From the NCBI RefSeq assembly GCF_003149375.1, contig NZ_QFWH01000007.1:62001-126000 (forward strand): a stretch of DNA of 64,000 bases, given 5' to 3'. Under the pieces are notes generated by a model, which was not told the DNA's origin, did not search any database, and saw nothing but the letters and a program-made list of their open reading frames with translations. The translations under genes and the position numbers were made by a program. The stretch comes from Vampirovibrio chlorellavorus (GTDB taxonomy: Bacteria; Cyanobacteriota; Vampirovibrionia; Vampirovibrionales; Vampirovibrionaceae). Below, piece after piece: positions 32,494-43,640 of this stretch (position 1 is the first letter of the stretch; each line of letters starts with the position of its first letter).

Positions 32494-33201
32494 TTAGCGG
32501 TCAGAATGACCATATCCCGGTTTCAGTTTCAAGGCCGAAGCGCCACTGGGCCGACTGGATTGCTGCTGCTCCTGCAGGCGAGTGGCCAGAATCTGATCCC
32601 GACTGTGTGATAGCCCTTTATCACGGTAGGGAATACCTGCCCGGCTTTGCAAATACAGTTGCTCCCAAGGCTCAGGGCTGATGGCGTGGACCAAAAATGG
32701 CTGCGCATCCAGATTGGCGCAGAGGGCCAGGGTGGCCCCGGCCTTTTGACCCAATCCTCTGGTTTTTAGTACCTGAAAACCGGCTTCCTGCAGACCGCCT
32801 TGCACGGCAGCCGCAGTGCTGTAGGTCAGTACCAATCCCTGCCGGTGCCGCAACAGGGTCTGATAGTGCCGGAACAGATCCACCGTCCATAGTTCGGGCA
32901 TTTTTTGCGGGGAAAACGGATCGTGAAACACTGCATCAAAATCACCCTGAATTTCCGGGAGGCATTTCCGAAGATCTTGCACCCGAAATTCGAATTGAAT
33001 GGCGCAATTATCTACTACAGGCAGAGCAATACTGGTAGAGCCCCCCTTCGTGTCGAGCTGGTTCATCAACGTCCGATAATATATATCATGCTCGAATTTG
33101 TGCATATAAAAACAGGAGCCAGACTCCTGGCAACTGCCTGCAATTTTCGAGCATTGATCCCATACTAGCCGGACAGATTCATAATATTCGGCAATAAGCA
33201 T
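32494..33201 (-). pseudogene. MnmC-like tRNA methyltransferase, C-terminal part fused to prophage start
   Basis: Host codons occupy 33086-32494 and carry the catalytic-domain signature DAVFHDPFSPQKMPELWT and the KAGATLALC end typical of MnmC-like SAM methyltransferases. The N-terminal part of the enzyme is at 43247-43640, 10 kb away. The first 38 codons (33201-33087) come from the prophage, with an ATG behind GGAAG, and fuse in frame to the host part. The fusion lacks the SAM-binding motif, so it should be inactive. Joining the two host parts gives 987 bp, exactly 329 codons including stop. Confidence 0.85.
33051..33095. repeat. Prophage attachment site, left copy
   Basis: Imperfect direct repeat of 43211-43255. 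The perfect core is 28 bp (33059-33086), starting TGGTTCATCAACGTCC and ending ATAATATATAT. Over the last 28 positions of the site (33069-33096) it resembles a dif site with a weakened right arm (TCATGCTCG). Confidence 0.9.
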
Positions 33202-33305
33202 AAGATTTCTTCCGCAAAATTAACAATTTCGGGAAGCATGTTTAACTCATCTCTCTAAACCTCCGTATTCAAATACCAAATTGAAAATATAAATTTACGG
33301 TATCT

Positions 33306-33334
33306 TTGCCGAAAAACTACGGCAATCTGATACT
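33306..33334 (+). promoter_or_regulatory. Prophage late-operon promoter with inverted repeat
   Basis: TTGCCG (33306-33311), a 17-bp spacer and GATACT (33329-33334), 40 bp before the first structural gene. The -35 is one arm of an inverted repeat, TTGCCG-N8-CGGCAA (33306-33325), a possible operator. Confidence 0.45.
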
Positions 33335-33373
33335 ATAAAACTCTAGGCATATTGTAGGTGACAAAGTGTAGTT

Positions 33374-34171
33374 ATGGCAAACGAAAAGATCGCGGCTGAT
33401 GAAGCCGTCCAAGCGGTTGTGGAAAGTGTGCCTCCAGAGGTTCAGAATACCCCTGAAATTCAGGAAATGACCCCGGAAGCATTGGGGGTTTTATTTTCAT
33501 CAAAAAAACCGGCCACACAGGACTATATATCTGCGCAAAAAGAGCCTGAGCCAAAACAGCCCGCCTATGCGGTCGATGAAAAATACTCCCATTTACAAGA
33601 CAGATATCGCAGAAAATTCAATCCGGAATTGCACGAAACTACGGCATCTGGTGAGCCTGTGACAACGCGCAACGGAAATTTGAAATGTCGTCCTGGACGG
33701 CCTCGACTCAGTGCCGTACAGTTAAAAAGCCCTCAGGAAGTTGTGGACGAAAAACAGGCAGTGGTAGCCGCACAGAGTGAAGCACAGATTAAAATGTGTT
33801 CTACCATTCTGGTTTCTTGCTTCCTGACTATTGGCGTTTCCACTTTTGGGGATGAATGGCGGCCCAGGGCAGAGAAAGAAGCGGGTCACAATGAAGTGCA
33901 AATGCTCCAGGAAGCGACCGAGGAATATTTCAGGGCGACGGGGACAGTAAATTTACCCCCTTGGGCTGGCCTGATGTGCGCCTATGGTTTGTACGCGCTT
34001 CCCCGGTTTCAGCAGCCTAAAACCCTGTCTAAGCTTGAAAAATTAAAGATGTGGATTAGCTATCAATGGCAAAACTTCCGAAACAAAAGAGCGGGAAAAC
34101 CGCCGATTCCAACCCCGACGGCTCAAGCCCCGAAAAGCAGACAGGAAGCGGAAGCCAGTACAGCGGCCTAA
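33374..34171 (+). CDS. Prophage membrane protein upstream of packaging ATPase
   Basis: 265 residues. An acidic, disordered N-terminus (1-60), a basic KCRPGRPR motif near 96-103, and two hydrophobic segments (about 142-158, STILVSCFLTIGVS; about 196-212, PPWAGLMCAYGLYAL) ending in a Lys/Arg-rich tail. In other double-jelly-roll phages a protein of this type, with an RGRPRK-like motif, often precedes the ATPase, which fits a virion or packaging role. This is inference from layout. It overlaps the ATPase frame by 106 bp if the latter starts at 34066. Confidence 0.7.
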   Translation: MANEKIAADEAVQAVVESVPPEVQNTPEIQEMTPEALGVLFSSKKPATQDYISAQKEPEPKQPAYAVDEKYSHLQDRYRRKFNPELHETTASGEPVTTRNGNLKCRPGRPRLSAVQLKSPQEVVDEKQAVVAAQSEAQIKMCSTILVSCFLTIGVSTFGDEWRPRAEKEAGHNEVQMLQEATEEYFRATGTVNLPPWAGLMCAYGLYALPRFQQPKTLSKLEKLKMWISYQWQNFRNKRAGKPPIPTPTAQAPKSRQEAEASTAA

Positions 34172-34686
34172 CGTTGATTGGTCATTCTTTGGTGTTGGGT
34201 AAAACATTATCCGGCAAAACGTCGCTTGTGAAGCGGATGACCATTGCCGCCAGCACGGAGGATGATACCCCGGTTTTTGTGCTGACCCCGCACGTGCAGG
34301 ATGCAGGCTGGAAGCACTGCGACCACGTTACCAAGGATGATGCCGAATTTTTAAAACTGGCTTTCAATTCTACCGATGCCCAACTGGTCATCGATGAGGC
34401 GGGCCGGTACTGTAAAAAATCCGATGAAGGCATGTGGCGTATAGCTTCGGAAAGCAGGCACCACGGGCACCAAGCGTTTTTCATTGCCCAGCGGCAACAG
34501 ATGATCGACAAAACGATTCGGGAACAATGTACGAATCTGTTTCTTTTCCAGCAAGGCCCGGATGATGCGCAAATTTTGTACGGCCAATTTGTTGACCGGC
34601 TGATTTTAGAGGCTCCTAGCTTGCCCCCGGGGGTGTGCATTGTGAAAATTGGTGATTCCCCAGCTTTTAAAATGAAAGTGTTTTAA
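34066..34686 (+). CDS. Genome-packaging ATPase, FtsK/HerA superfamily
   Basis: 206 residues. Walker A is GKTLSGKTS (45-53), Walker B is QLVIDEAGR (106-114, with D110 and E111), followed by SESRHHGHQAFFIAQRQQM and a conserved Arg-containing helix (TIREQCTNLFLFQQ). This is the A32/P9-like arrangement used by membrane-containing icosahedral viruses to pump DNA into the capsid, distinct from terminases and from Zot-type ATPases. The start is uncertain: ATG 34066 has no ribosome-binding site and overlaps the previous gene; TTG 34174 is an alternative that keeps all motifs. Confidence 0.85.
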   Translation: MAKLPKQKSGKTADSNPDGSSPEKQTGSGSQYSGLTLIGHSLVLGKTLSGKTSLVKRMTIAASTEDDTPVFVLTPHVQDAGWKHCDHVTKDDAEFLKLAFNSTDAQLVIDEAGRYCKKSDEGMWRIASESRHHGHQAFFIAQRQQMIDKTIREQCTNLFLFQQGPDDAQILYGQFVDRLILEAPSLPPGVCIVKIGDSPAFKMKVF

Positions 34687-34767
34687 TTTTAAAAAAATAT
34701 GATAAGCTGAACCCTAACGAGTGTAGTAGTAGATTTTTTCTTGTTCGTACCAAAAAAGGGGAATGAT

Positions 34768-34848
34768 ATGCTGAAAACCATTATGGTTGGTGCTTTGGGC
34801 ACCGTAGCCGGTTTGTACCTGGCTAAAGCGCTTCGCATTACCGCTTAA
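34768..34848 (+). CDS. Prophage mini membrane protein, 26 residues
   Basis: MLKTIMVGALGTVAGLYLAK and a short tail, behind a clear AGGGGA ribosome-binding site. One hydrophobic helix fills the protein. Membrane-containing phages encode several such small virion membrane proteins; I infer that role. Confidence 0.65.
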   Translation: MLKTIMVGALGTVAGLYLAKALRITA

Positions 34849-34865
34849 TTTTAGGGGGATAAACC

Positions 34866-35006
34866 TTGAAAACAGCGGCAATTGTGTTTGCGACAATTCT
34901 GGGCACTGGGGCATTTTTGCACGCGGCGGGAACTGGCCGCTTCGGCTCTCAACTGCAACAGATGGCCAACTATGTAACTGTGGGCTATGGCGTGGGGACG
35001 CTTTAG
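34866..35006 (+). CDS. Prophage small membrane protein, 46 residues
   Basis: Starts with TTG 34866, eight bases after AGGGGG. A hydrophobic N-terminal segment (about 3-20, TAAIVFATILGTGAFLHA) is followed by a polar Gly/Gln/Tyr-rich end. Placed between the ATPase and capsid genes in the rightward operon, so a virion membrane protein is likely. Confidence 0.62.
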   Translation: MKTAAIVFATILGTGAFLHAAGTGRFGSQLQQMANYVTVGYGVGTL

Positions 35007-35042
35007 ACCTTTTTTGTTTTGAGATAGAGGAGAAAAAGCCTT

Positions 35043-35963
35043 ATGGCTGCGAACCCGGCACAAGGAATTTACAGGGCGCAAGGTGAAGCCGCGATCCCGC
35101 TTCAATATGAGTCGTTTTTAGGGAACGCCTCAGGCCTCGCTAGTAACGGAACCGGTCTTTTTGCCATCCCGACGGCTGGCACCTATTACGGTTTTCGATT
35201 TCGTTTTTTGACAGCCGGTGGCGTGGAAGTCACCCAGGCCCAAGCGGAAGCGGAAGTTACCGATATCCGAATTCGGGTTAATGGCGACCTAGTGATAGAT
35301 GCCAAAACCTCGGAATTGAACATGCTGCAAGGCTTTTACGGGGATTCAAAAGGCGCGGCCATCGTGCCAGGTATCACCGTGATCGACCTGGTGCGTTCCA
35401 ATGCTCTCACCCTGCCAGGTGAAAAGACCCAATATGCTTGGGGCACCAAGGGCGTTGACTCCATTCAGTGCCAATTTGTCTGCGGCACTCTGACCAACGT
35501 AGCCAGCATTGAGGTTTACGCGGTACAAACAGACGAAGATCGCCCGATGGCTACCCATTTGCGCATTCTGCCCACCACGGCAAACTTCGCAAGCACCGGC
35601 GATTATACCCTGTCTGACTTACCCAGAGATCCCGGCACTGCCTACTTGGCGGCGCATATCGGTTTAGGGGCTGGCACCCTGAAGAACACCACCCTGACCA
35701 TCGACAACGTGCTGATCTACAACCAAATCCCGCCCAAAGTAGAGCAACAGCGTTTAGAATGGCACGGACGGAACCCGCAAACTGGCTATTTCCACCTTGA
35801 TTTTGCCCTTCAAAACGAGATTTTGGGCTATCTACCGATGGTTCGGAACAATGGGCGCAAGGTGCAAGACATCCGACTTAAAACCAACTGGACGGTTGCC
35901 CCAGGCAATCACCGGGTTGTCACTGAGCGGATTTTCGGCTTACCGGCCATCGTAGCCGCTTAG
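35043..35963 (+). CDS. Major capsid protein, P2-like double jelly roll
   Basis: 306 residues with the strongest ribosome-binding site of the operon (AGAGGAGAAAAAG). The P2_N-type coat pattern can be followed: YYGFRFRFLTAGGVEVTQAQ (about 57-76), IRIRVNGDLVIDAKTSELN, AWGTKGVDSIQCQFVCGTL, a THLRILPTTANFASTGDY stretch, and near the end RNPQTGYFHLDFALQNE. The protein is almost wholly beta-strand, and two successive jelly rolls fit the length; PM2 P2 is 269 residues as I recall. It would form the icosahedral shell around an inner membrane. A hairpin follows at once, which may raise its expression relative to later genes. Confidence 0.8.
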   Translation: MAANPAQGIYRAQGEAAIPLQYESFLGNASGLASNGTGLFAIPTAGTYYGFRFRFLTAGGVEVTQAQAEAEVTDIRIRVNGDLVIDAKTSELNMLQGFYGDSKGAAIVPGITVIDLVRSNALTLPGEKTQYAWGTKGVDSIQCQFVCGTLTNVASIEVYAVQTDEDRPMATHLRILPTTANFASTGDYTLSDLPRDPGTAYLAAHIGLGAGTLKNTTLTIDNVLIYNQIPPKVEQQRLEWHGRNPQTGYFHLDFALQNEILGYLPMVRNNGRKVQDIRLKTNWTVAPGNHRVVTERIFGLPAIVAA

Positions 35964-35993
35964 AATACCCTTTCGCTTGCTTGATTGATGATG

Positions 35994-36030
35994 AAACAGT
36001 GCCCGCCTGCTTTGGGTGGGCACTGTTTGG
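35994..36030 (+). terminator. Attenuator hairpin after the capsid gene
   Basis: AAACAGTGCCCGCC (35994-36007) pairs with GGTGGGCACTGTTT (36015-36028), 14 pairs including one G-U, loop TGCTTTG. The T-run is short, so partial termination is likely. Confidence 0.65.
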
Positions 36031-36044
36031 AAATGAGGGCTATC

Positions 36045-36305
36045 GTGTTTTTGGACACAGTTGAAGACACTCTTGTTAACCTGACTTCCGGCTTTGCTCA
36101 GGGCTGGAATCAGTCTTTGGGCTATCAAAGCATGAACGGGTATCAGTATGATCCCTATTCGGGGCAGTATTACACCATTCCGGCCCAACGTTCCCCGATC
36201 TATCAGCCCATACCATACTACCCACCTGCCTATAACCAGGGTGCGGATTGGCTTCCTCTGTTATTGATTGGCGGCGTTCTACTTTTCGCTTTAATGAAGG
36301 ACTGA
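36045..36305 (+). CDS. Prophage membrane protein, Tyr/Gln-rich with C-terminal anchor
   Basis: 86 residues if started at GTG 36045 (GAGGG five bases upstream); ATG 36033 in the same frame is possible but has a poorer site. The middle is rich in Tyr, Gln and Pro (YDPYSGQYYTIPAQ), and a single hydrophobic helix lies at the C-terminus (WLPLLLIGGVLLFALM). The next three proteins but one share this plan: polar body, C-terminal anchor. Confidence 0.62.
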   Translation: MFLDTVEDTLVNLTSGFAQGWNQSLGYQSMNGYQYDPYSGQYYTIPAQRSPIYQPIPYYPPAYNQGADWLPLLLIGGVLLFALMKD

Positions 36306-36309
36306 TTTT

Positions 36310-36660
36310 ATGATTTTGACTGGATACGCACAGCAAACAGGAGTTGCCCCATACGATCCGCAACTAGATTACGGCTTTCAAAGCATCTTACCCGTGATTC
36401 CACGCGTTAACAGTCCTCAAAGCTTGCCTATGACCTGGCCCCCGCCTGGATTCTTCCAAAGTAACCCCAGAAATCAGCCACAATTCCAGCCTGCTTTTCC
36501 GGCCATTTCGCCTAGGGGCCTGAAAGATGATGCGCAACTGGATCAGGAACGCTTTGAAATTCAAAACGCCCAAAATCCAGCGCCCGGAATGGGCTCTTTA
36601 TTGTGGATTGCTGCCATTGGTGCGGCGGCTTATTACTTTTACAAAAAAGGGAAAAGCTAA
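36310..36660 (+). CDS. Prophage C-terminally anchored protein
   Basis: 116 residues. Pro/Gln/Phe-rich body and one C-terminal membrane helix (LLWIAAIGAAAYYFY) followed by KKGKS. Family not recognised. Its stop overlaps the next start (TAATG at 36660). Confidence 0.65.
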   Translation: MILTGYAQQTGVAPYDPQLDYGFQSILPVIPRVNSPQSLPMTWPPPGFFQSNPRNQPQFQPAFPAISPRGLKDDAQLDQERFEIQNAQNPAPGMGSLLWIAAIGAAAYYFYKKGKS

Positions 36661-37019
36661 TGGGCGTTGATCCAATGACATTGGCGGCTATTGGCTCTAG
36701 CGCCCAGGGGTTAGGGCAAGGGTTAGGTGCAGCGTTCGCTCCAGCCCCTTCCTACAGTGCGGCGCAGTCTGATAGCTATCAGGGTGGCGTATCATTTCAG
36801 CCGTCATACACGTGGGCAAGTGATTTTAATGTGGTGGGTGGGGGCGCAAATGGCGGTTCACTTGGCAAAAGTGCGAGCGGTGGGCTTTCATTGGCTGGCA
36901 ATTCTTCCGGTGCTACGGCTACCGGTGCATCTGGTTCAACCACACTAGGACAGCTTTTACCCATTTTCGTGATTGGAGGTGTAGCGTGGCTATTGCTCCG
37001 CAAGAAGAAAACGGGATAA
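36660..37019 (+). CDS. Prophage Gly/Ser-rich C-terminally anchored protein
   Basis: 119 residues from ATG 36660, coupled to the previous stop. Gly/Ser/Ala-rich body (GGGANGGSLGKSASGG), then a membrane helix (LLPIFVIGGVAWLLL) and RKKKTG. The next gene starts 34 bp before this one ends, in another frame. Confidence 0.65.
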   Translation: MGVDPMTLAAIGSSAQGLGQGLGAAFAPAPSYSAAQSDSYQGGVSFQPSYTWASDFNVVGGGANGGSLGKSASGGLSLAGNSSGATATGASGSTTLGQLLPIFVIGGVAWLLLRKKKTG

Positions 37020-37420
37020 TTCATATCCAGAAATCCAGTTGGAGCGCCAAAAATGCCCAACACTTGGAAGGATACTTAACTTCTTCCGAACTGGATCATC
37101 TTTGGTTTGAAATAAATTCTGGAAATGTTCAATTGTGGAATGTTTACAGGCTTAATAGCGCTGGAAATGAACACGTAGCAACTGTATGTACCCGGATTGA
37201 AGAGATGTACGATCGCACTAAACATTTAGTGGTGATCCACGGCGGCGGACAATTTGTGGAAAGCCTTCCCTCTATTCACGATTATCTATATCAAGAGGCG
37301 AAGAATAAGGATTGTAAGGTATTTCGGGCCATTGTTGCACGAAAAGGCGTGGCTGAAATCTTAAAACGGCAATACGGTTGCCGGGATTGGGAATACCTGG
37401 TTATGAAAGAGGTTTTTTAA
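36986..37420 (+). CDS. Prophage cytoplasmic protein, possibly GNAT-like fold
   Basis: 144 residues starting at GTG 36986, five bases after GGAGGT; the start lies inside the preceding gene. No membrane segment. The order of elements (LDHLWFEI, then KHLVVIHGGGQFVESL, then ILKRQYGCRDWEYLVMKEV) recalls small GNAT-fold proteins seen in many phages, where an Arg-x-x-Trp segment precedes the last strand. This is a weak structural resemblance, not a family match. It is the only soluble-looking mixed alpha/beta protein among the structural genes. Confidence 0.6.
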   Translation: MAIAPQEENGIIHIQKSSWSAKNAQHLEGYLTSSELDHLWFEINSGNVQLWNVYRLNSAGNEHVATVCTRIEEMYDRTKHLVVIHGGGQFVESLPSIHDYLYQEAKNKDCKVFRAIVARKGVAEILKRQYGCRDWEYLVMKEVF

Positions 37421-37779
37421 TGTCAGGCGGCGGATCAAAAAGCTCTAGCAAGTCGAATACTACGACAAGCACGTCCAGCACCACCCAACAACAGGATCAA
37501 CGGGTGGCGGCTACTGATGCCGGGATTGCTATTGGGCCAAACACCACAGGTACTATAAACATTTCCCAATTGCCGCCTGAAGCTGGCACGATTTTACAGG
37601 GGTTTTTAGACCTCACGCAAATGGCCCTGGAAACGGCTGCCGGTGCCGGACAGGTTGCAGTGGATACCCAGGCCCAATTGAACGAGACGCAGGCCTCAAC
37701 CGCTCAAAACAATCAGCGGCTTATCTGGGTGAGTTTAGCCGTATTGGCGGCTGTATATGTCTTTAAGGGGGAATTCTAA
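37420..37779 (+). CDS. Prophage Ser/Thr-rich C-terminally anchored protein
   Basis: 119 residues from ATG 37420 (TAATG coupling). A Ser/Thr/Gln-rich N-terminus (1-25), a helical middle, and one membrane helix near the end (LIWVSLAVLAAVYVF). The stop overlaps the next start at 37779. Confidence 0.65.
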   Translation: MSGGGSKSSSKSNTTTSTSSTTQQQDQRVAATDAGIAIGPNTTGTINISQLPPEAGTILQGFLDLTQMALETAAGAGQVAVDTQAQLNETQASTAQNNQRLIWVSLAVLAAVYVFKGEF

Positions 37780-38339
37780 TGGGTATCGCATATTTAGAGT
37801 ACACCGGCACGTTGACGGCCAATCAAATTCAGAAAGTGCCTTTGGCCGGAAAGTCCCTGGCGATTTTGTCCCTGAGCGGCTCCCTAAAATTACAGGTGGA
37901 TTCCAACGAAACCACGAATATTCGCGCAGGGATGACTTTCAAGTTGCCCGATGGGTTTGAAGAACTGTTTTTTCAGGAGACGGCCGGGGCCGCTGCCAGT
38001 TTTACCATTGCCGTTTCAGAGGGCGATATTTTTGACAACCGTTTAACCGTCAGTTCTACCCTGAATACAAAATCGGGCGATACCCTGAATAACCCGGCTG
38101 CCGTGTCCGTGGGGACAGGGGCGACCGCTATTGTGGCCCTGGACGCAACCCGAAATTCTGTTGAGATTTTCAATAACGATACCGTAAAAACTTTGTACAT
38201 TGGTGGAGCTGCTGTAACAACGGCCACTGGACGGCCTGTGTTGCCGCAAACGTCCATCGCACTGGATTCAGGGGCGGCTATTTACGGTATTTCGCCATCT
38301 GGCACAATTGATACCAGAGTGTTGGAGCTGAAAAACTAA
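37779..38339 (+). CDS. Prophage beta-rich protein, probable vertex or spike component
   Basis: 186 residues, almost all predicted beta-strand, with no membrane helix. The N-terminal half ends SEGDIFDNRLTVSS, a phrase resembling receptor-binding or vertex proteins of other phages (pattern G-x-x-x-D-N-R-L). The C-terminal half (about 95-186) looks like a separate small beta domain. By position it would suit a capsid vertex or spike role. Inference only. Confidence 0.62.
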   Translation: MGIAYLEYTGTLTANQIQKVPLAGKSLAILSLSGSLKLQVDSNETTNIRAGMTFKLPDGFEELFFQETAGAAASFTIAVSEGDIFDNRLTVSSTLNTKSGDTLNNPAAVSVGTGATAIVALDATRNSVEIFNNDTVKTLYIGGAAVTTATGRPVLPQTSIALDSGAAIYGISPSGTIDTRVLELKN

Positions 38340-38707
38340 TGGGAATTAGAGGATCAGGCGCAAGAGCTGTATTTTCAAAAACTTACACAAGCCCGGAGCA
38401 AATCATTACGTCCGGCGGCGCTTTAACGCTGGCTCACGGCCTGGGAGAGCGGCCAAAATCATTAAGATTCACTCTGGTTTGCAATGCGGCAAATATCAAT
38501 TATTCAATTGGGGATGAAGTGGATCTTGATTCTGTTAGGCGCGAAAATAGTATCAATGGCGGGCTTTCAGTCGTTGTTGATGCAACGAATATTTATATCC
38601 GTTATGGCTCAAATGCCACTGTTTTTTTGTTACTGAATAAAAGCACCGGTGTAGGTACGGATATCACCAATAGCAATTGGCGATTGGTAGTGAGGGCTTT
38701 CGCATGA
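38339..38707 (+). CDS. Prophage beta-rich virion protein, possible host-binding domain
   Basis: 122 residues, coupled by TAATG to the previous gene. The segment GGALTLAHGLGERPKSLRF and the regularly spaced strands resemble small beta-sandwich domains found in phage fibres and lectin-like proteins. No catalytic residues. The reading frame overlaps the next gene by 4 bp. Confidence 0.6.
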   Translation: MGIRGSGARAVFSKTYTSPEQIITSGGALTLAHGLGERPKSLRFTLVCNAANINYSIGDEVDLDSVRRENSINGGLSVVVDATNIYIRYGSNATVFLLLNKSTGVGTDITNSNWRLVVRAFA

Positions 38708-38886
38708 CCACGAAGTTTTTTGTTGATGAGAGTGGAAAGTACCTGGGCGGTTGGGATACGCCCGAATCAGAGTATCCACCTGGCGCTATTGAAATTCCTG
38801 CACCGCCTGAACACGGGGCGGATGTTCTGCTGAAAAATGGAACCTGGGATACTTCGGGAAGGCCGGTGGACAATGAGCCTGCTTGA
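38704..38886 (+). CDS. Prophage small acidic protein
   Basis: 60 residues. Acidic and Pro-rich (GGWDTPESEYPPGAIEIPAPPEHGADV), close in style to the C-terminal pieces of phage fibre-assembly chaperones. It sits between the putative host-binding protein and the peptidase gene, overlapping both. Confidence 0.62.
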   Translation: MTTKFFVDESGKYLGGWDTPESEYPPGAIEIPAPPEHGADVLLKNGTWDTSGRPVDNEPA

Positions 38887-39985
38887 TGAACCGATCGACT
38901 TACCAAGCACAGAGGAATTGCTCTCTGTTCCCGTATTGGCGGGGGCCGGGTTCGGTCTTTTTGCCGCTTATTCTGTGTTCAAAACCCCTTCGCTTGCTCA
39001 GATGCTGGGCCTCTCTATGTTGGGTGGCCTGGGTGGGTTTTACCTTAACCCTGTTTTGGTCTCTGGCCCGCCTGCCCCTAGAACACCCAACCCCGCCCCT
39101 TCCCCGGTGCCTGCCGTGCCAGAGATCCGGGTACCAAGCTTGCCCACCCTGGATTTTGGCGGGTTTTTCCAAGGCGCCTTGGATACCGTCCAGGACGCCA
39201 TTGAAAACGTTTTACCGCCCACCACTGCCGATACAGGAGGAAAGCCTGTGACCATTGCCCCTGGCTCCATTATGAACCCCGAAACGGCCTACGCTTTAAT
39301 CCAGCAAGGCAAATATGCCACACACGTTCGCTATGCCAAGATGAGCCGGTATTATCAGTGGAAAGACTGTATTGAGCCACTTCTAGCGCCTGTTGGTGCC
39401 TCCAGAGCAAAGCAAGTAGCCTTAGAAACCCTGAAAAATTCGGCAAAACTGGCTAGCTATTTGGATATTGTTTGCGATCGTTCCACTAAAAGCAAAATTA
39501 CCGCTAACTCCTGGATCCGTATTCAACAGAAAAGTAGTTTCCATACTTCTGGAAAAGCTGCTGACCTAGGCGGAAGTCTTACTTTTGAATATATTACAGG
39601 ACCCTTATTGAGAGCTGCTAGAAGCGTACAGGGTATCAATATTGGGATTCCTACAGTTAGAAATCATCGTTCGCTCCATATTGATATTGGTTTTAGAGCT
39701 GGATCGCCAGCTGGGAAGCCTCAATTTACTTTCATTGATAATGGAAGTTACGGGGGCGGCGACAAATGGAATGAGATTCTTCCTCCGCCAGGTGGGTCTC
39801 AAAAACCTGTTGTTAAAACCACTGCAAAAGCGTCTATTTTACCCAAGGCGGGCTCCATTGCGGTGCCAACGGCACCCAAGCCTAGGCCTTTGCCCTTTAT
39901 CCCTATTCCCGTTTTTGCACCGGCTCCCGCGCCGCCTGCTTATGGCCCTGGGGATGTTTCCGGTTCCATTATTCGATACAACTGA
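38873..39985 (+). CDS. Prophage membrane-anchored M15-like peptidoglycan peptidase
   Basis: 370 residues. Two hydrophobic segments (about 20-36 and 43-60) precede a Pro-rich linker. The catalytic domain shows the M15 zinc signature: H224-x6-D231 in SFHTSGKAADL, and H269-x-D271 in SLHIDIGF. Such enzymes cut peptide bonds in peptidoglycan stems. The membrane anchor and late-operon position suggest a virion enzyme that opens the wall at entry, or an exit lysin. A second Pro-rich stretch forms the tail. Confidence 0.75.
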   Translation: MSLLDEPIDLPSTEELLSVPVLAGAGFGLFAAYSVFKTPSLAQMLGLSMLGGLGGFYLNPVLVSGPPAPRTPNPAPSPVPAVPEIRVPSLPTLDFGGFFQGALDTVQDAIENVLPPTTADTGGKPVTIAPGSIMNPETAYALIQQGKYATHVRYAKMSRYYQWKDCIEPLLAPVGASRAKQVALETLKNSAKLASYLDIVCDRSTKSKITANSWIRIQQKSSFHTSGKAADLGGSLTFEYITGPLLRAARSVQGINIGIPTVRNHRSLHIDIGFRAGSPAGKPQFTFIDNGSYGGGDKWNEILPPPGGSQKPVVKTTAKASILPKAGSIAVPTAPKPRPLPFIPIPVFAPAPAPPAYGPGDVSGSIIRYN

Positions 39986-39996
39986 GGAGAAAAACA

Positions 39997-40221
39997 ATGG
40001 CTGCTTTAGTCCCTTTTATCGTGCCCGGCCTTGCGGCCATTGGCGGCTTTTCCATCCTGCAAACCGGCTCTCAGGCGGTGGGCGGGATGACCAACCCCGG
40101 CGGTGGTACCCAGGCCAGCCAAAACGGCGGCTTTTTTGATCGCCTGGATACCCTGACAACCCTTTTACTCATTGGTGGCGTGTTATTTCTGGTTGTAGAA
40201 GGAAAGAAGGCTCTCAAATGA
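39997..40221 (+). CDS. Prophage two-segment membrane protein
   Basis: 74 residues behind GAGGAG. Hydrophobic segments at about 2-20 (AALVPFIVPGLAAIGGFSIL) and 52-67 (LTTLLLIGGVLFLVVEG), joined by a Gly-rich loop. Could be a virion membrane protein or a holin. Confidence 0.65.
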   Translation: MAALVPFIVPGLAAIGGFSILQTGSQAVGGMTNPGGGTQASQNGGFFDRLDTLTTLLLIGGVLFLVVEGKKALK

Positions 40222-40337
40222 ACGACAAATATCTGACTTACGCGGCAATCTTCGCCTTGGGCTTTTTAACCCACAATTTTGTAGTGCAACAGCAAACACT
40301 GGGGACCATTTCCGGCTGGTTCAACTGGAACCGGTAA
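40218..40337 (+). CDS. Prophage mini membrane protein, 39 residues
   Basis: Starts at ATG 40218 inside the previous stop (ATGA). One hydrophobic stretch (YLTYAAIFALGFLTHNFVV) and a Trp-containing tail. Stop overlaps the next start. Confidence 0.6.
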   Translation: MNDKYLTYAAIFALGFLTHNFVVQQQTLGTISGWFNWNR

Positions 40338-40492
40338 TGCTGGTTTGGTGGCAAAACGTTCTGATTGGCTTGAGTGCTGGCCTATCCTGTGGACTAGCTA
40401 CTGTTGTAGTACTTAAGAACGATCTGAAATGGCTGGCTTGGCGCCTGGATCGTGTGGAAAAACGAGTTGAGGAACTGGAAAGGAAACTATGA
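40337..40492 (+). CDS. Prophage membrane protein with C-terminal coiled coil, 51 residues
   Basis: TAATG coupling at 40337. Membrane helix at 5-26 (WQNVLIGLSAGLSCGLATVVVL), then a charged heptad-like helix (WRLDRVEKRVEELERKL). The layout resembles small phage proteins that accompany lysis genes. Function unknown. Confidence 0.6.
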   Translation: MLVWWQNVLIGLSAGLSCGLATVVVLKNDLKWLAWRLDRVEKRVEELERKL

Positions 40493-40677
40493 GTATTAAT
40501 TTTTTTTCGTTCGAGCCTGCGGTTATCAATATCATTACAAGCGTTGTTGCTACCGCTTCCGCTGTGGCTGCGTTCACACCAAACAAGCACGACGATGCTG
40601 CAATGATATTTGTGAGGAAAGTTGTGGATTTTCTGGCTTTCAACTGGGGCAATGCCGCCAATGCGAAACGTCGATAA
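40489..40677 (+). CDS. Prophage small membrane protein, holin-neighbour type
   Basis: 62 residues. A hydrophobic segment (about 10-30, AVINIITSVVATASAVAAF) and a tail reading TPNKHDDAAMIFVRKVVDFLAFNWGNA. A similar TP-K-DD ... R-K-x-x-D-x-x-A-x-N-x-G-N-A tail occurs in small proteins of many tailed phages near lysis genes, as far as I recall. The role is not established. Confidence 0.62.
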   Translation: MSINFFSFEPAVINIITSVVATASAVAAFTPNKHDDAAMIFVRKVVDFLAFNWGNAANAKRR

Positions 40678-40855
40678 ACAATGGCTTGGGGTCGGCCTGA
40701 TTATTGCCGCCCTGGTGCTAATGGGGCGGCGTGGCCAAACCAATACCACACCGCTTCGGCCTGAAGCCATTGGGTGGGGGTACATCCGCACCCCCGATAA
40801 TAATAGTGGATCCGGTGGGCTGATAAAAACCGGAATTAGTTATACTCAGTATTAA
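40661..40855 (+). CDS. Prophage small membrane protein
   Basis: 64 residues from ATG 40661, which lies within the end of the previous gene. Hydrophobic segment at about 8-20 (WLGVGLIIAALVLMG), then RRG and a polar tail. Start could also be 40652. Confidence 0.58.
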   Translation: MRNVDKQWLGVGLIIAALVLMGRRGQTNTTPLRPEAIGWGYIRTPDNNSGSGGLIKTGISYTQY

Positions 40856-40869
40856 GGAGGTGATGCGGT

Positions 40870-41043
40870 ATGCCACGAGACCCCAAAACAGGGCAATTTG
40901 TAAAAAAAAACGACCAAAGCAACGCAGGCGCGGATGATGCCGTGACGGAGGCTGCTAATCCGCCCAAAAAACGGATTGGCTTTTACAATGTGCGGCACGA
41001 TGAATTTGTACAGCAAGGAATCCGGCTTCCGTTCGACTCCTAA
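40870..41043 (+). CDS. Prophage small basic/acidic soluble protein
   Basis: 57 residues, preceded by a full-length AAGGAGGTGAT ribosome-binding site, the best in the window. Polar throughout (MPRDPKTGQFVKK at the start), no membrane segment. It is the last gene of the rightward operon. Function unknown. Confidence 0.62.
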   Translation: MPRDPKTGQFVKKNDQSNAGADDAVTEAANPPKKRIGFYNVRHDEFVQQGIRLPFDS

Positions 41044-41065
41044 CCTACCCTGGCAATGTAACGAT

Positions 41066-41094
41066 ACCGGCCTCCACAGGCCGGTTTTTCTTTT
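41066..41094 (+). terminator. Terminator of the prophage rightward operon
   Basis: Perfect 8-bp stem ACCGGCCT (41066-41073) with AGGCCGGT (41078-41085), followed by TTTTCTTTT. Confidence 0.88.
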
Positions 41095-41146
41095 ATGTTA
41101 TGATTTACAGTACTTTTAAAACCTTTAATTTAAATACCAAATATTT

Positions 41147-41181
41147 TGCCCGCCCCGTTTACCGGATGCGGGCATTTTTTT
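41147..41181. terminator. Second terminator between convergent prophage operons
   Basis: TGCCCGC (41147-41153) pairs with GCGGGCA (41168-41174), followed by seven T. It lies between the two convergent operons and is best for rightward transcription. Confidence 0.75.
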
Positions 41182-41212
41182 GTTTCAGGTATCGTAAGCC
41201 CTGAAAACAATT

Positions 41213-41437
41213 TCAGGGGCCTTCTTGGGCCTGTGATTTTTGCCGTAAACCGATTGGCCGGTCATTTCCCTGCATAGTCTGCACCTGGGAATTGAGTGAT
41301 ATTGTCCAGTTTAAAAAAGCACCTATGATTATTCCTATAACCAGAGCAACTCCTGCCAACTGGTAAGAGCTTTGCTGAACATTGCCGATAGTTTCGTAAC
41401 AGGAGCTTTCCGTAACAAGTCCCAATATTCCAAGCAT
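41213..41437 (-). CDS. Prophage small membrane protein, leftward operon
   Basis: 74 residues, start behind AGGGA. One central membrane helix (about 28-46, LAGVALVIGIIIGAFLNW). Last gene of the leftward operon, directly after a signal-peptide protein. A holin or immunity role is possible but unsupported. Confidence 0.6.
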   Translation of the reverse strand: MLGILGLVTESSCYETIGNVQQSSYQLAGVALVIGIIIGAFLNWTISLNSQVQTMQGNDRPIGLRQKSQAQEGP

Positions 41438-41450
41438 CTTATATCCCTAT

Positions 41451-41720
41451 TCAATCGCTACAGGTAGGAACCAAAATGTGTTCCAGTTTTTCAAAGGCTG
41501 AACGACACTTGGAATTGCTTTTCCCGTATTTATCTTCACATTCATGAATTTCTCGAAGCTGGTTTTGTGCTTGCTCAATAGTTGTTTGAAAGCCTGCAAT
41601 CTCTTGACGTAAAACCATATTTTCATTTTTTAGGCTGGTTTCCGCCCAAGCGAAACCGGACAGCATGACCACAACCAGGGCGGCAACAATGCGGGAAACC
41701 ATATTACTTTTAAACTCCAT
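41451..41720 (-). CDS. Prophage exported coiled-coil protein
   Basis: 89 residues from ATG 41720 (AGGTGG nine bases upstream; TTG 41726 is less likely). Signal peptide or anchor at about 7-26 (VSRIVAALVVVMLSGFAWAE), then a coiled coil (LKNENMVLRQEIAGFQTTIE) and three Cys in the C-terminal third. The plan, N-terminal anchor plus periplasmic coiled coil, resembles an inner-membrane spanin. That is inference. Confidence 0.62.
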   Translation of the reverse strand: MEFKSNMVSRIVAALVVVMLSGFAWAETSLKNENMVLRQEIAGFQTTIEQAQNQLREIHECEDKYGKSNSKCRSAFEKLEHILVPTCSD

Positions 41721-41805
41721 AATCAAATACCACCTGCATTATGGATCAGTTTAAAAAAAAGAAAAGGGGGGACTTTTTATATCCCCCCGCAGAAGTGTAT
41801 TGTGA

Positions 41806-42027
41806 TTACGGAAACCGTTGTTTTTCCCTGTGGATGCGGGCGTTTCGGCTTACTTCGGCAGGGTCAAAGTCTCTCAATTTCTGGATTGTGCCATCGTTCG
41901 GTTTGCCGTGTCGGAAAAGGGTTAGCTGATTCCCTCCGGAATATCCGCATACCGGGCACCGAAATGCGGCAAGGCTTTTGGCGAACACCTCCGTATGACA
42001 TTCAGGGCATCGGTAAATATCAGTCAC
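41806..42027 (-). CDS. Prophage zinc-ribbon protein
   Basis: 73 residues from GTG 42027, six bases after AGGAGG. A zinc ribbon is formed by CPEC (about 7-10) and CPVC (about 23-26) in YRCPECHTEVFAKSL and FRCPVCGYSGG. The rest is basic. Candidate nucleic-acid-binding or regulatory protein. The start overlaps the end of the previous gene by 8 bp. Confidence 0.65.
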   Translation of the reverse strand: MTDIYRCPECHTEVFAKSLAAFRCPVCGYSGGNQLTLFRHGKPNDGTIQKLRDFDPAEVSRNARIHREKQRFP

Positions 42028-42175
42028 TCGGCACCTCCTGAACATCAAAGAAGAACTCATCTTCCGGTAATACCGTTTTTGCAGCCCTAATCCAAGCCTC
42101 GGCCTGCTCCTTAGTGCCAAAACTCCCGGTCGATTGTACGGATTTTACCATTGCACTGATGACCACCTGGAACAT
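42020..42175 (-). CDS. Prophage small protein, leftward operon
   Basis: 51 residues (MFQVVISAMVKSVQSTGSFG at the start, then an acidic end DEFFFDVQEVPSD). Coupled by TAATG to the gene before it. It shares the MF-x-V start and EVP end with its neighbour at 42175-42348, so they may be paralogues. No domain recognised. Confidence 0.6.
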   Translation of the reverse strand: MFQVVISAMVKSVQSTGSFGTKEQAEAWIRAAKTVLPEDEFFFDVQEVPSD

Positions 42176-42348
42176 TACGGCACCTCCCGGACTTCAAAAC
42201 GGATGCCCAACATTGCGTTATAGCCCCGGTAATTATTGTTTGCACCGTTTACCCAGCCTTCAGCAATGTATTTGTTCTCAAATTCCCGGATGGGAAACCA
42301 TTGCTCGCTGATTCCGGGCTGTCGGATGTTCATATAAACGGCAAACAT
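42175..42348 (-). CDS. Prophage small protein, leftward operon
   Basis: 57 residues (MFAVYMNIRQPGISEQWFPI at the start; ends RFEVREVP). Starts directly after the stop of the 141-residue gene. The GGGAGGTG inside its last codons serves as ribosome-binding site for the next gene. No domain recognised. Confidence 0.6.
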   Translation of the reverse strand: MFAVYMNIRQPGISEQWFPIREFENKYIAEGWVNGANNNYRGYNAMLGIRFEVREVP

Positions 42349-42774
42349 TTACTGAGCCTCCCGGATGCCGATTTCACCCCGGATTCTGTCCACTTCCCGC
42401 AACCGGTTTTCGTGGTTGCGGAAGTAGGAAGCGCCCGCGTATTTTTCCAGTATCGGGCGGCGGGGATCACGAGCCATTGAGATTAGCATATTCACGGCCC
42501 GTTTCTTGCAGGCGGCTTCATCGTCGGTATATTGGCCCGTTTGGCTGGTACGGAAATACCAGGGACTGCTTTCCCATATCGACACAATAAAGTCGCAAAC
42601 CCGCTTGATATGCGGTATCCGGTCAACACCTCCCGCGCTTTGGATGAGGCGGAAAGCGCCTTGTGGCCCGAAATCGAGAACCAACGTGGCAGCCTTAAAA
42701 GACCTGTCACGGTTGACTAAATCGATTATGTACCGTGCTGGAACCAGTGTATCATTTGCTCTTCGGCTTGTCAT
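42349..42774 (-). CDS. Prophage protein of unknown function, first gene of leftward operon
   Basis: 141 residues from ATG 42774 (AAAGGA upstream). Mostly helical, with many Arg and aromatic residues (VPARYIIDLVNRDRSF, SIWESSPWYFRTSQTG, RNHENRLREVDRIRGE). No helix-turn-helix, HUH, or recombinase active-site pattern is visible. As the first and largest gene of the early-type operon, it is the best candidate for a replication or control protein, but this is position-based guesswork. Confidence 0.6.
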   Translation of the reverse strand: MTSRRANDTLVPARYIIDLVNRDRSFKAATLVLDFGPQGAFRLIQSAGGVDRIPHIKRVCDFIVSIWESSPWYFRTSQTGQYTDDEAACKKRAVNMLISMARDPRRPILEKYAGASYFRNHENRLREVDRIRGEIGIREAQ

Positions 42775-43100
42775 TGACGAAAATCCTTTTAAAATCACAA
42801 TACTGACTGAATCTCTAGAAGCGGCTTCTAGCTAGTGGGTAGCCGATCAGCCATCTATACCTTCTAAATAACCCCTGCAAAGGGTCTAGATGGTCTAGAA
42901 AGTATATAGACCGGCGCGGCGCTTATTTTTTGGAAAATTGCGCAGCAAAAAGCTTCCGGGGCTTTTGCGGCAATCTCCGGGTGCGTTAAATTCGGGCGGC
43001 AAAAATTCAGGCCTGAAAATCAAGCCGCCTATATTCTGCGGATTCAAATCTTACGGTAAATCTGATAGCATGCAGTCCGCCGCTACGGTAGACCAAAAAT
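42775..43100. promoter_or_regulatory. Prophage control region rich in CTAG operators
   Basis: Upstream of the leftward operon. A 17-bp near-palindrome CTAGAAGC-G-GCTTCTAG (42815-42831) and two GGTCTAGA boxes (42883-42890 and 42892-42899) are seen. The second box forms an inverted repeat with TAGACC (42907-42912). Five CTAG tetranucleotides occur in 85 bp. TACGG motifs at 43052, 43084 and 43102 echo those at the left end. No gene seen. Confidence 0.55.
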
Positions 43101-43640
43101 CTACGGGGATGGCGAACGAGACATAAGTTCTAGCAGATCTACCTCATAACGTTTATTGCCGTCCAAATCGTACTCCTCTACAACCATTGGTTCGGTAGGC
43201 CGACCCTTAGTGTCGAGTTGGTTCATCAACGTCCGATAATATATATTATGTTCCGACGGGGTTAAATTTTGGTTCAGGGCATCGAAGCAAGGAAGTGCTA
43301 AAACCTGAGGCAAAAATCGCATGATCTCAATGGACTGTTCCACCGCTACTATAGAGAGTGTTACAGGGGAAAGGGCCACAGGGCCCATGGGTGTTTCTAC
43401 CCCTGCCCGGTGACGCAACAATTCGTTGATGAGGGCCCAGGAATTGTAGCCCATGCCGTAGCAAGCATCCAGAATGCGGATTTCCCCGGTCTTTTGGGCC
43501 TTATCCAACAGCCCGGAGGGCATTACGTAGTTGTTGACTGCCTCCGTGTAAGCGCCGGCCCGGTTGTGGCACAACTGCCCCACCGCCACATCCAGGCAGG
43601 AAAGCGAACCATCGGCTGTCTGAATCAGTTCATAAGTCAT
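43101..43640 (-). pseudogene. MnmC-like tRNA methyltransferase, N-terminal part fused to prophage end
   Basis: Host codons run from ATG 43640 to 43247 and include the SAM-binding motif I, ILDACYGMGYNSWALI. The frame then passes through the attachment core and ends in 33 prophage-encoded codons (from RPTEPMVV). The methyltransferase signature of the C-terminal part is left behind at 32494-33086. MnmC-like enzymes methylate the wobble uridine modification of some tRNAs. The interrupted gene should be inactive while the phage is integrated. Confidence 0.85.
43211..43255. repeat. Prophage attachment site, right copy, dif-like
   Basis: Imperfect direct repeat of 33051-33095, perfect core 43219-43246. 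Positions 43229-43256 resemble a dif site: ACGTCCGATAA, a TATATA centre and TTATGTT. The 14-mer AATATATATTATGT is identical to the B. subtilis dif as I remember it. Confidence 0.88.

Follow-up and report, generated by a model that had tools for sequence, protein, structure and literature searches.

The attachment sites of TLCphi of Vibrio cholerae and of the gonococcal genomic island (GGI) of Neisseria match the chromosomal dif site in the XerC arm and the central region, while the XerD arm diverges (PMC5357621, PMC4246890), and elements of this type are reported to begin recombination with XerD (PMC5357621, PMC4246890). Tailless phages located at dif are known from Vibrio, among them the NO16-like phages (PMC9966536) and the prophages described in PMC11630473, which regularly bear integrases and for which the mechanism was left open. 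The filamentous phage XacF1 has its attP inside one of its own ORFs, which integration splits; its host dif was not described in a conserved host gene (PMC5666396). The known and predicted dif sites are non-coding to 96.3% (PMC2731167) and 93.9% (PMC3025954), and a dif prediction found none in Cyanobacteria (PMC3025954).

The window investigated here is a stretch of 64,000 nucleotides from the genome of Vampirovibrio chlorellavorus. It contains a site resembling the usual chromosomal dif (PMC2731167, PMC3025954) in its 28 bp with 11-6-11 layout, its low G+C content, its conserved XerD arm and its position near the terminus, but unlike the usual non-coding sites it is located inside a gene conserved across orders. 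A prophage adjoins the site (Table 1). As in TLCphi and difGGI, attP combines a dif-like XerC arm and centre with a divergent XerD arm, no integrase is recognised, and a complete dif is found on one side of the element. In contrast to these two, the prophages are tailless and PM2-like, their hosts are non-photosynthetic Cyanobacteriota and dif lies inside a gene. They share with the NO16-like phages (PMC9966536) and the tailless Vibrio prophages (PMC11630473) the double jelly-roll type and the location at dif-like sites, and differ from the latter in their coding site and in the lack of a recognised integrase. The split phage ORF is found as in XacF1 (PMC5666396), whereas here attP and attB are both situated in open frames. 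The open-access literature searched yielded no previous description of a dif in mnmD, nor of prophages at the dif of Vampirovibrio. It is highly probable that the site is the chromosomal dif, kept within mnmD by selection on the DNA, and that PM2-like phages with no recognisable integrase enter it via the host XerCD.

Table 1. Features of the dif locus and the adjoining prophage (positions in the window).
Feature	Position	Strand	Remarks
C-terminal half of split mnmD	32494..33201	-	Methyltransf_30 (PF05430, 5.4e-25); phage-supplied start and first ~40 codons
PM2/corticovirus-like prophage	33069..43228		10,160 bp
attL	33069..33096	+	ACGTCCGATAATATATATCATGCTCGAA; XerC arm and central region as in dif, degenerate phage XerD arm TCATGCTCGAA; identical in G004
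Uncharacterised first gene	33374..34171	+	Position conserved in all four prophages
Packaging ATPase, Zot/FtsK-like P-loop	34066..34686	+	Profile matches; just upstream of the capsid gene
PM2-type double jelly-roll capsid protein	35043..35963	+	P2_C 7.1e-16, P2_N 1.9e-5, phrog_8536
Probable endolysin	38837..39985	+	M15-like His/Asp pattern by eye; no Pfam/PHROG match
Uncharacterised early-region gene	42349..42798	-	No family; non-integrase by Pfam/PHROG
N-terminal half of split mnmD	43101..43640	-	~137 host residues, phage-coded tail at end
Complete dif site (attR)	43229..43256	+	XerC arm ACGTCCGATAA, central region TATATA, XerD arm TTATGTTCCGA

The 11-6-11 layout described in the initial annotation is present at the right junction of the prophage, where the full 28-bp site reads ACGTCCGATAATATATATTATGTTCCGA, consisting of two 11-bp arms and a 6-bp centre with the conserved right arm TTATGT. 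With up to three mismatches allowed, ACGTCCGATAA-TATATA-TTATGTTCCGA occurs once in the window and was not obtained in any of 100 shuffles. The pattern search over the whole 2.79-Mb genome returned this site as the sole near-perfect match, followed by the left junction and then by a chance site on contig C6, so that the genome-wide look for other dif-like sites yielded no better candidate. When 400 kb of contigs C6 and C7 were scanned with a matrix made from the sites of relatives, from which this genome was omitted together with its two sister species that bear prophages, dif scored 42.7 versus 5.9 for the best unrelated site. The position C6:69356 (GTTTCAATAAATATATATTATGTTTTTT), which harbors the only other TATATATTATGT of the genome, was rejected as the true dif, as it has a matrix score of 4.0 compared to 42.7 and lies upstream of a homoserine-kinase-like gene, away from the skew maxima. 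As judged from these searches, the right junction holds the strongest dif candidate of this Vampirovibrio genome.

The dif site is expected at the maximum of the cumulative GC skew, not at the minimum. On contig C7, the cumulative G-C curve calculated with the prophage removed peaks approximately 4 kb from dif, and two other genomes have their skew change points at distances of 8 kb (G252) and 30 kb (G020). On the complete 2.21-Mb chromosome of G005, the skew changes its sign about 40–60 kb from dif; for G009, the sign is constant within 100 kb of the site and merely the slope halves. dif marks the maximum of the skew, where the initial annotation had named the minimum. No clear signal was obtained for a polarity of KOPS-like octamers around dif. 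Two of the eight Phage_integrase matches in the genome are Xer homologues, one XerD-like (L004, 289 bits) and one XerC-like (L005, 285 bits), both of which score under the equivalog cut-offs of TIGR02224/TIGR02225. An FtsK gamma domain (PF09397) was not matched in this 95%-complete genome, nor in a control cyanobacterium. Xer binding and dimer resolution at the dif-like site are predicted from the sequences.

An order-wide search detected dif within three mismatches of the order consensus, (A/G)NGTC(T/C)GATAA-TATATA-TTATGTTC, in 16 of 18 genomes, with variation mostly in the central region and the outer arms. Each genome has a single strong dif, which is conserved in relatives; extra copies are the attL sites of prophages, besides a possible second site in G012. 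In the latter genome (L129, L043), the site in mnmD is diverged, with GATGCA as its centre, and a different contig bears a second dif-like site, which is intergenic. Families f1 and f2 carry dif inside MnmD proteins with 34–54% identity to that of the window. After a class-wide search of 289 genomes, MnmD loci were retrieved, and exact or near-exact dif was found in frame in mnmD at all 41 loci of the Gastranaerophilales (f6), a sample biased toward the best-scoring loci, and at two out of two loci each in f11 and f12. None of the 17 loci of the Obscuribacterales (f4) and none of those from oxygenic cyanobacteria contains the motif. The genomes of f3 and f9 and genome G008 possess the same dif sequence with no mnmD gene spanning it, which indicates that the DNA is independent of the protein. 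An ABC-transporter ATPase gene of the same kind is located to the right of the intergenic dif in both G008 (L062) and G005 (L235). This common neighbour suggests a shared location after dif had left mnmD or mnmD had been lost. The identification of the site as a chromosomal dif, as originally proposed, is upheld by its conservation across the order, its uniqueness in the genome, its position at the GC-skew switch, its occurrence outside mnmD in relatives and the presence of two encoded Xer recombinases.

With the 10,160-bp element removed from the sequence, the flanks form a single open minus-strand frame of 328 amino acids, a relative of the tRNA methyltransferase MnmD/MnmC2; the site therefore lies within mnmD, a gene which is split by the element. 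The best solved relative of this protein is the Aquifex MnmC2. A modelled relative aligns to this structure (3vyw) over 258 residues (Z 28.4, rmsd 2.2), as expected for the MnmC2 fold, and a relative matches NF033855 with 2.9e-26, which is under the cut-off. On the minus strand, the dif site reads in frame as E-H-N-I-Y-Y-R-T, so that the dif-like palindrome is indeed formed by the codons for H-N-I-Y-Y-R within a gene, as had been noted from the window, and this gene is mnmD.

Since the peptide H-N-I-Y-Y is near-invariant in these MnmD proteins, the palindrome might be a mere conserved protein motif resembling dif, the real dif being located elsewhere. The codon usage argues against this explanation, which is regarded as very unlikely. 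Among 73 aligned mnmD genes, counted for the sequences with the common residue at each position, the codons CAT, AAT, ATA, TAT and TAT are used in 73/73, 71/71, 69/71, 71/71 and 73/73 cases, while synonyms are freely used for other invariant residues of MnmD (His, CAT 44 and CAC 28; Tyr, TAT 47 and TAC 25; Asn, AAC 49 and AAT 23). In the six mnmD genes whose GC3 reaches 0.45 or more, multiplying the probabilities derived from their own codon usage gives approximately 10^-13, which is not a formal p-value because the six genes are related. Furthermore, changes in the central region alter the residue (Ile to Thr or Ala, Asn to Lys), whereas the arms persist unchanged on the DNA level. The dif-coded peptide falls into the region modelled with the lowest confidence, a loop comprising residues 134–161, which is shorter in cyanobacterial MnmD. 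Identical DNA at dif loci devoid of mnmD and the MnmD proteins of Obscuribacterales and oxygenic cyanobacteria devoid of the motif also speak against a purely protein-borne motif. Sequence comparison and modelling together show the pattern of a recombination site that is accommodated by a tolerant loop of MnmD. The MnmD proteins of the Gastranaerophilales (L087-L128) have a long variable insertion directly before the dif-coded peptide.

A P2-type capsid protein, an ATPase encoded upstream of it and a size of approximately 10 kb characterize the element as PM2-like (Vinavirales). The capsid protein was detected in five of the 289 genomes, all belonging to f1, and that of the window shows 99% identity to the capsid protein of G004 and 43% to that of G008. 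V. chlorellavorus NCIMB 11383 (G004) harbors a near-identical prophage at dif within mnmD, and in G002, where one junction was seen, the capsid gene is accompanied by a matching right junction. Related prophages of 11,325 bp and 10,331 bp are inserted at an intergenic dif in G008 and between ACTACTGATAATGGTTATCATGATCAAA and ACTACTGATAATGGTTATTATGTTCGAA in G005, respectively. As dif is located outside mnmD in these two genomes, the phages follow dif and not the gene, which is a further argument against a mere MnmD motif. The centre in G005 is TGGTTA, on which the divergent host dif and both att sites agree. No free relatives were found among viral contigs, neither by a search with the capsid protein nor by a search with the attP/dif pattern. 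The G005 prophage (L235 7237-17595) is placed in opposite orientation relative to att, with the capsid gene on the minus strand; its attP was therefore probably acquired or swapped independently.

Pfam and PHROG profiles revealed no tyrosine or serine recombinase among 18 ORFs of the element in the window, which bears out the earlier remark that an integrase is not recognisable, and none was recognised by profile search among ten early ORFs from the elements in G008 and G005. Several small genes of the element have no family assignment and tailless Vibrio prophages at dif regularly bear integrases (PMC11630473), so that the phage could encode a recombinase of its own which escaped recognition and targets dif. 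This is judged unlikely, considering the negative profile searches in these main ORFs, the location of all eight Phage_integrase matches of the genome outside the element and the fact that attP imitates dif itself.

All four prophages with both junctions (those of the window, G004, G008 and G005) have a degenerate XerD arm of phage origin and retain a complete dif at attR. The attL of the window lies 10,160 bp to the left of the complete dif and displays the degenerate, phage-derived right arm that had been reported for the left junction. In each case, attP and attB match one another over the XerC arm and the central region. In the window, the repeat extends beyond dif to 60 bp with 87% identity (33034-33093 versus 43194-43253), which might point to entry by homologous recombination across the repeat. 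G004, G008 and G005 lack a repeat of such length; their identity amounts to just about 13–19 bp and always comprises the XerC arm and the central region, which makes homologous recombination extremely unlikely. Over these 60 bp, the phage flank, with its 87% identity, is closer to mnmD of the present host than to the G004 gene, as though part of a host mnmD had been picked up by the phage. On the circular phage genome, an ORF of 86 amino acids extends across attP in the mnmD frame, and both halves of the split mnmD consequently stay open. The att sites of G008 exhibit one mismatch in the central region. This was rejected as a proof of XerC-first exchange, because a heteroduplex can segregate either way and the mismatch is uninformative on the strand order.

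Integration by the host Xer system, as suggested in the initial annotation, is favoured by the related prophages with no recognisable integrase at the dif of other genomes, two of them outside mnmD, and by the centre common to host dif and att in G005. According to the proposed mechanism, host XerC and XerD would act on the 28-bp dif at the terminus and resolve dimeric chromosomes there. The site resides in a variable loop of mnmD (E/L-H-N-I-Y-Y) in the Vampirovibrionales, the Gastranaerophilales and no fewer than two further families, and selection on the DNA would keep it in place. A small dsDNA tailless phage would provide on its circular genome an attP composed of the XerC arm of the host, a matching centre and a degenerate XerD arm, and host XerCD would recombine this attP with dif in a manner closest to that of TLCphi or the GGI; by analogy with these elements, the order of strand exchange may be the same. 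Integration would leave a complete dif at attR, formed by the phage XerC arm and the host XerD arm, so that dimer resolution could continue, while the degenerate attL would favour stability. The price of integration would be the split mnmD, the product of which probably loses its activity. Alternatively, dif might have been retained in mnmD because the coupling is useful, the prophage serving as a reversible, Xer-driven mnmD switch that is off (or leaves two in-frame pieces) in lysogens and on after excision; this appears rather doubtful.

For the reading preferred here, a chromosomal dif kept within mnmD and entered via host XerCD by phages with no recognisable integrase, the Vampirovibrio prophages extend a known strategy to a new group of hosts, and the fixation of dif within a conserved gene across orders is the new part. 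Because dif lies in the gene of a conserved enzyme across orders, a single stretch of DNA is under selection as codons and, at the same time, as a recombination site. A dif is hereby supplied for the non-photosynthetic Cyanobacteriota, including the gut Gastranaerophilales, in a phylum for which an earlier survey had none, and Xer biology becomes testable in these mostly uncultured lineages. The occurrence of tailless phages without a recognisable integrase at dif bears on the question left open for Vibrio, and lysogeny in these hosts predictably splits the tRNA-modification gene mnmD.
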